A stretch of DNA of 64,000 nucleotides from Rhododendron vialii (taxonomy: Eukaryota > Streptophyta > Magnoliopsida > Ericales > Ericaceae): NCBI RefSeq assembly GCF_030253575.1, contig NC_080560.1:40719001-40783000 (forward strand). The letters run 5' to 3'. Positions 30,317 through 31,632 of the stretch are shown one piece after another (the stretch's first letter is position 1; every line of letters starts with the position of its first letter). The notes below the pieces were generated by a model. That model was not told the DNA's origin, made no database searches, and worked only from the letters and a program-made list of their open reading frames with translations. The position numbers and the translations under genes were made by a program.

Positions 30317-30322
30317 TGTGAT
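30317..30322 (-). promoter_or_regulatory. miR398 target site, 3' part (second leader exon)
   Basis: The first six bases of the exon that carries the dismutase start codon read ATCACA. Joined by splicing to the end of the leader exon at 31618 they complete the 21-nt miR398-like site. The acceptor is TTGTTTAG just upstream (30323-30330). Confidence 0.75.
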
Positions 30323-30896
30323 CTAAACAAGTAATAGAAACAAGCCCTCGGTATCAGAATCAACAAATTGGTTGTAAGAGTTGAAAAAGTTAGAACTTTT
30401 ACTGTGTGGACAGTGGAATGCAAATGTGTAAGACGCCAAGCTTAAACAATCCCAGATGCATAAAGCTCCAAAACCAAAGACCAAATGGCCGAAAAAACGA
30501 AGCTACAGAGATAAATTCAAACTCCATCCGCAGAACAAATGTACAGTGATTAATCCCAAAAGAGTGGACATTGACTAGTAAATCCACCTAAACTGCAGCT
30601 ATGATCTTCTATTCTTCACAACGCAGTACGAATGCTTTTTTTAAACTTTGTTAAATCATCTTAACATAAATTTTTCTTACAATTGGCTGTGTTTGAAGCC
30701 CGAACTTTGTGAAAGTCGTAAACCACTAAAATTATCAAACTTACGAGCCTACCCCTAAAACATAATCACGTGAATACCATAAACGGATATCTTTCTCAAT
30801 CTTCTAAATGGTCCCCCCTCGAATCAAAATCTTAGCTCCGCCCCAAAATCCACCCCACTCTAATGTAGGTGGTTGAACATAATTGATCTCAAGTAA

Positions 30897-31081
30897 AGGC
30901 CTCGTTTGGTTTGCATTGCTTAAGCAAATTTGTTTGGTCAAACGACTGCTTATTTGCTTATTTCCTATTCTAAATTGTCGGTTTCCATAAAATAAGCAAT
31001 TAAGCTTCCAAATGTGTCCAAACTTTCCTATTTGCTTGTTGTCTACTTCAAGAAAATAAACAAGGTAACCAAACGGGCGCT
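30897..31081. mobile_element. Tourist-like MITE (PIF/Harbinger) in the 5' leader intron
   Basis: Ends AGGCCTCGTTTGGTT and complement AGCGCCCGTTTGGTT, flanked by TAA on both sides (30894-30896, 31082-31084). Length 185 bp; the body is AT-rich with several AAGCAAAT/ATTTGCTT palindromes. End motif and TAA duplication are typical of Tourist elements. Confidence 0.75.
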
Positions 31082-31617
31082 TAATAACCACTTGTTTTTC
31101 TCGACAACTAGACAGAACAAGATAATCAACAGCAATTCAGTGACCAAAATCATGCCTCTGCAAAAATGCATACTCGAGAATCGAGATCTGTCATTCACCG
31201 GATAAACACAACTTCTGGACACAAGTGTGTTTGGAGCCGTCCCATGTATGTGAGCCCGCATACATCAAACTGCTCTGGCTGCAGTTGTGTCCAGATTTGT
31301 ATTCTACTGTGTTGCTAGCATTGCTCTGAATTATTTCAATTAGAACTATCATAGTTATTTTCCGATTAAAAAAGTATCATAATCATTTGGATGGTTATAA
31401 CGACAACAAAAAAAAATTATGTTATTCCAAACGGATTACTACCACATGAATCTATTTCAACAGCGTGAGAATAAAACCTGACCCAATCGCTGAAGCAACG
31501 AAAATTAACCGATAAATCGTTGGAAACTCGGATTAATCAAACCAAGGGCGAATGAAATCATGTAAATCTGATGGGTAAAAGGGTAGATATAGAAGGAGAA
31601 ATCGGATCTATACTCAC

Positions 31618-31630
31618 CTCAGAACACCCC

Positions 31631-31632
<2 letters not shown>
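31618..31632 (-). promoter_or_regulatory. miR398 target site, 5' part (end of leader exon)
   Basis: The dismutase 5' leader exon ends GCGGGGTGTTCTGAG before the donor GTGAGTA (31611-31617). Spliced to ATCACA (30317-30322) it gives a 21-nt site with good pairing to miR398 (as I remember its sequence): four mismatches, two of them at the miRNA 3' end, and one G:U. The intron falls between miRNA positions 6 and 7. Confidence 0.75.

Follow-up and report, generated by a model that had tools for sequence, protein, structure and literature searches.

The 5′ leader of the CSD1 gene in this window (the whole stretch analyzed, C4:40719001-40783000, 64 kb) very probably carries a classical miR398 site that is interrupted by the leader intron, an intron that is itself probably spliced constitutively. 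We consider the split site real and well explained; closely allied ideas have already been published for other plants, to which the case of this plant is now added. Control of the CSD1 leader by miR398 is classical, and CSD1 is named among the miR398 targets with a site in the 5′ UTR (PMC9502370, PMC4005643).

The window contains on its minus strand a complete gene for a Cu/Zn superoxide dismutase, CSD1, whose full CDS translates and at whose locus Pfam Sod_Cu matches. We take it to be of the cytosolic kind because it has no N-terminal extension and in view of what is known of the family. All exon borders were read from the sequence alone (Table 1). The donor at 31618 has the context GAG/GTGAGT (the slash marks the exon border), and the minus strand from 30337 to 30323 ends with TTGTTTAG, followed by ATCACA. 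Folding of the leader revealed no special structure (z, +1.33).

Table 1. Coordinates of the CSD1 gene model and of the two parts of the predicted miR398 site in the window
Feature	Position	Strand	Remarks
Leader exon	31618..31760	-	5′ end near 31760 guessed from TATA-like sequence at about 31797-31790; (CT)n tract directly preceding the miR398 site
miR398 site, 5′ part, GCGGGGTGTTCTGAG	31618..31632	-	Pairs with miRNA positions 7-21; predicted cut between 31622 and 31621
Leader intron, 1295 nt	30323..31617	-	GT-AG; 22 ATGs; placed by splice signals and comparison with the paralogue
miR398 site, 3′ part, ATCACA	30317..30322	-	Pairs with miRNA positions 1-6 except for a mismatch at 5; identical in the paralogue
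Exon 2	30236..30322	-	Leader portion of 11 nt; start codon (ATG) at 30311; initial 76 nt of CDS
Exon 3	30014..30115	-	
Exon 4	29791..29886	-	Contains HAGDLGN
Exon 5	29371..29402	-	
Exon 6	29220..29295	-	
Exon 7	27443..27496	-	
Exon 8	26581..26603	-	Contains the stop codon

Two inverted repeats are found in and near the leader. Positions 31837-32157, some 40 nt upstream of the TATA-like sequence, form a nearly perfect palindromic repeat with two 154-nt arms (88% complementary) and a 13-nt spacer. It belongs to a high-copy family: the first look gave 2886 candidates, 40 of which were scored, and at least 40 places, the window copy included, match it at ≥95% identity, with two weaker ones (75-77%) adjoining one of them. 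This palindrome has likely inserted into the CSD1 promoter recently. The other inverted repeat, at 31214-31295, has 37-nt arms that are 70% complementary, lies inside the leader intron and is perhaps a MITE.

The pairing was computed with the miR398 sequences of the genome itself. A pattern search of its 13 contigs (532.6 Mb) yielded three miR398 loci, L001, L002 and L003, all of which passed the Rfam MIR398 (RF00695) cut-off of 55 bits (71.6, 65.2 and 58.8 bits) and had precursor folding z-scores below -5 (-5.9, -8.3 and -6.6). Two forms of the miRNA are encoded, TGTGTTCTCAGGTCACCCCTT at two loci (the L001/L002 form) and TGTGTTCTCAGGTCGCCCCTG at one (the L003 form).

In the joined site, GCGGGGTGTTCTGAG/ATCACA (31632-31618 + 30322-30317), the junction lies between the bases opposite miRNA positions 6 and 7. 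Recomputation thus upheld the intron placement given in the first-pass annotation, whose coordinates and bases for the two exon edges, the leader exon ending at 31618 and the next exon starting with ATCACA at 30322, were also right, while the junction itself is what we infer. The L001/L002 form has an Allen score of 6.5, with mismatches at positions 5, 13 and 20 and G:U pairs at 12 and 21; the L003 form has one of 7.5, with mismatches at 5, 13, 20 and 21 and G:U pairs at 12 and 15. The pairing first proposed (mismatches at 5, 13, 20 and 21, one G:U at 12) therefore fits the L003 form except for the wobble at 15, which it misses, and agrees with the L001/L002 form everywhere but at position 21, where there is a G:U pair. 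Positions 6-11 are all Watson-Crick with both forms, so that positions 10-11 are paired, and the joined leader site is near-complementary to miR398 with a mediocre score. The two ungapped Allen scores exceed the usual cut-offs. On the same scale, the Arabidopsis CSD1 site has a value of 5 for the L001/L002 form and of 6.5 for the L003 form, and the mismatch at position 5 is presumably common to both plants.

Unspliced RNA pairs far less well. The Allen score on the donor side is 12.5 with the L001/L002 form and 13.5 with the L003 form, and that on the acceptor side is 17 and 15, respectively; the duplex energy for the L001/L002 form changes from -28.3 kcal/mol in the spliced RNA to -21.8 kcal/mol in the unspliced RNA. 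The loss of miR398 seed pairing in unspliced CSD1 RNA is thus supported as physics, in agreement with the earlier proposal that such transcripts would escape the miRNA. An ungapped contiguous 21-mer scoring 6.5 or better was not found on either strand of the 64-kb window. Together with the occurrence of the same split in a paralogue (see below), this bears out the central claim of the first-pass annotation, that the CSD1 leader has a miR398 site only after splicing.

We also searched the genome with the 15-nt joined core for a CSD1 retrocopy. None was found among the exact matches: the two of them lie at neither CSD1 gene and are not followed by the CSD1 start. A retrocopy was accordingly rejected as proof of the junction, as neither match continues into CSD1 sequence. 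When up to one mismatch was allowed, the core had 59 matches in the genome, versus 37 for the reversed control. One of the exact matches, L004, reads by eye like what we take to be a chalcone synthase gene.

A second CSD1 gene is found on contig C2. Its CT-rich leader ends with AAGGGGCGTTCTGAG/GTAAAA and its next exon starts with ATCACATATAACAATGG, so that a 1476-nt intron divides the site AAGGGGCGTTCTGAG/ATCACA. The coding sequence of exons 2 to 7 shows 85.5% identity between the two genes across 145 codons, with a Ks of 0.62 and a Ka of 0.06. At the site, 12 of the 13 final nucleotides of the 5′ part are identical between the genes, as is the entire acceptor flank TTGTTTAG/ATCACAT. In the leader, BLAST (E of 0.01 or better) gave an alignment solely over the CT tract and the site; in the 1295-nt intron it aligned no more than 67 internal nucleotides, the final 20 nt and, as part of the leader match, the initial 2 nt. 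Therefore, the exon edges forming the miR398 site have been kept and most of their surroundings have not. We regard the same split at the same place in the paralogue as the strongest evidence for the candidate site. The copies differ opposite miRNA position 15, where the C of the paralogue pairs with the G of the L003 form and the T of the window gene with the A of the L001/L002 form; for two genes only, this match of each copy to one miR398 form may be called suggestive. Both paralogues have a long CT tract that adjoins or nearly adjoins the 5′ side of the site (31633-31667 in the window, 3776-3807 in L038).

Whether such pairing could have arisen by chance, or could belong to another junction, was evaluated with dinucleotide shuffles of miR398 and a ranking of splice signals. 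At the given junction 31618/30322, only 3 of 20,000 shuffles pair as well as miR398 with either form, and at the paralogue junction 3 of 20,000 (L001/L002 form) and 0 of 20,000 (L003 form) do so. A free-junction test admitted every GT x AG pair with a spacing of 70 nt or more and took the value of the 31618/30322 junction as the threshold, which makes it fairer than an earlier short-cut run that used the 12 best per side and the best pairing found as the threshold (10, 19, 16 and 12 of 1000). Under the full test, 49 of 1000 shuffles of the L001/L002 form and 72 of 1000 of the L003 form reach the threshold in the window; hence, pairing alone is only modest evidence. These frequencies and the mediocre score are what speaks for a fortuitous complementarity at the leader junction without any action of miR398. 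Such a coincidence is nevertheless very improbable given the counts at the fixed junction, the same split site in the paralogue and the standing of CSD1 as a known miR398 target (PMC9502370). In the paralogue, the split junction (6.0) pairs better than every other GT x AG combination, and its value is attained by 15 and 10 of 1000 shuffles.

In the window, two pairings reach the threshold, both with donor 31618, one with acceptor 31303 (5.5) and the other with acceptor 30322 (6.5). Pairing alone thus singles out the donor and not the acceptor. The better score of 31303, and the fact that 30322 is only one of 80 AGs in the scanned stretch 31610-30250, would allow for a different junction, for instance through another acceptor of the intron. 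However, 31303 comes after purine-rich sequence and is separated by 8 nt from an inverted repeat, whereas 30322 takes second place among the 80 in a crude count of pyrimidines and has the flank shared with the paralogue, which leaves a different junction scarcely probable. By the same crude count, the paralogue acceptor ranks only 8th of 65 AGs. Regarding the donors, 31618 is the best U1 match by duplex energy of the 94 GTs in 31800-30250, and the paralogue donor is the second best of 105.

A further alternative is a splice-gated switch, in which the choice of leader intron, first exon or acceptor would be regulated by copper or drought and some CSD1 mRNA would escape miR398. The geometry of the window site permits escape, and precedents exist. 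Peanut has CSD1 isoforms devoid of the site, the miR398 site of AhCSD1-2.2 being removed by alternative splicing (Park and Grabau 2017, quoted in PMC9502370), and PMC7674178 repeats this loss by splicing for peanut and Arabidopsis. Isoforms without the site are likewise described for soybean GmCSD1a/b in PMC7201782, whose abstract says that splicing might affect drought tolerance and whose conclusion has the drought effect unaffected by CSD1 splicing. A splice variant of rice CSD3 is without the miR398 site, and no splice variant was found for rice CSD1 (PMC8068833).

Retention of the leader intron looks like a poor route to such a switch. Transcripts that retain UTR introns can be exported, but Arabidopsis variants with a retained intron usually avoid NMD owing to their nuclear location, which also lets particular isoforms escape cleavage by small RNAs (PMC7826280). 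In the window gene, the leader with its intron retained contains 22 upstream AUGs, compared with none in the spliced leader from 31760. An intron-retaining CSD1 isoform therefore looks poorly translatable, and such RNA would hardly yield more CSD1 because of the 22 AUGs added upstream of the start codon. The donor 31618, as the strongest U1 match of the region, speaks for constitutive use. An alternative first exon or acceptor could give a CSD1 mRNA that is both escaping and translatable. On balance, we judge a switch regulated by copper or drought to be unlikely.

Nothing found in the sequence pointed to an action of copper via leader splicing either, and this part of the first-pass annotation was not borne out. 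GTAC motifs, the SPL7 boxes of the MIR398 promoter (PMC7674178), are clustered upstream of one MIR398 gene and not of CSD1: the 500 nt upstream of L003 (L003 901-1400) contain 9 of them, versus 1.8 expected from base composition. For L001 and L002, the 500-nt upstream regions contain 4 and 3, respectively (1.8 expected each), and for each CSD1 gene 1 was found versus 1.6 expected. Among the MIR398 and CSD1 upstream regions, clear GTAC enrichment is thus limited to L003.

For a constitutively spliced leader with a split miR398 site, we propose the following mechanism. Splicing would bring the last 15 nt of the leader exon next to the first 6 nt of exon 2, and cytoplasmic miR398-AGO1 would pair with the joined 21 nt and either cut opposite positions 10-11 or block translation. 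Copper-poor cells would make miR398 and hence less CSD1. Junction use, miR398 cleavage and the copper link are what we infer here. The exonic GAG before the donor would serve both U1 and miRNA positions 7-9. The split would most simply reflect an old intron position around which the site has grown or been kept, which does not require a regulatory switch. A bolder idea, and one that we think is quite improbable, is that the split itself has been selected. The GAG would then have two readers, U1 and miR398 positions 7-9, which would confine miR398 action to CSD1 RNA without the leader intron, and a regulated choice of first exon or acceptor would set the share of CSD1 mRNA that escapes copper control. 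If true, this would represent an overlapping splice/miRNA code, kept in two paralogues since their duplication at Ks 0.62.

Regarding known systems, the site reported in the CSD1 5′ UTR of Arabidopsis and other plants concerns the same gene, leader location and miRNA as that of the window. The difference is that the window shows explicitly where the intron falls inside the site, in a comparison drawn from this one genome. In the literature consulted, available in part, a statement that an intron splits the CSD1 site was not found; the nearest is in the paper on Phaseolus vulgaris CSD1 (PMC3882225), whose wording, in the text available, stops short of an intron interrupting the 21 nt. CSD1 isoforms that have or lack the site arise by alternative splicing in peanut (AhCSD1-2.2; Park and Grabau 2017, as quoted) and in soybean (GmCSD1a-1/b-1; PMC7201782), whereas an isoform of the window gene lacking the site would be hypothetical. 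More generally, 44 of 354 Arabidopsis miRNA sites are affected by alternative splicing (Yang et al. 2012, quoted in PMC4324062), and the interplay is thus known and not rare; the share of sites split across a junction is not given in the part of that source available. For upland cotton SODs, the available text of PMC5429560 reports predicted miR398 sites in coding regions only and no leader site. A leader site of a well-studied miRNA such as that of CSD1 can hide from searches of genomic DNA and from gene models without UTR exons, and target predictions can therefore miss it. The paralogue pair provides, in one genome, two independent leaders in which splice dependence can be tested.

Other members of the family were surveyed for miR398 sites. 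We take the genes on C1 and C13 to be CSD2-like, that on C10 to be CCS-like and L039 on C4 to be CSD3-like. In the CSD2-like genes, the coding HAGDLGN stretch pairs with miR398 at 68-74% of the perfect duplex energy and appears by eye to be contiguous in one exon, and the CCS-like gene has an ungapped contiguous coding site with a score of 6.0 (L042 4651-4671). HAGDLGN pairing is poor in L039 (42%). Elsewhere in the CSD loci L038-L041, the only contiguous ungapped site was one weak match (6.5) in L040. Among the miR398 sites examined, the predicted split is limited to the CSD1 pair.

Three minor observations were made on these sequences. At the HAGDLGN codons of the window CSD1 gene (29830, minus strand), the 3′ part of miR398 pairs and most of the pairing of its 5′ part is lost (-22.8 kcal/mol, 56% of perfect). 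The miR398 site of the CCS-like gene begins 2 nt past an apparent acceptor, TTTATTCAG; it adjoins the junction but is contiguous. The 5′ arm of the L003 precursor reads GGAGTGACCTGAGATCACATG at L003 1418-1438, which closely resembles the joined CSD1 site and has the same T opposite miRNA position 5. This arm suggested an origin of MIR398 by inverted duplication of CSD1, an idea that was dropped because the likeness is held by complementarity to miR398 and the CSD2-like HAGDLGN stretch is an equally good source. Apart from CSD1, the window contains a tRNA-Pro (AGG) gene at 10786-10857 on the minus strand.
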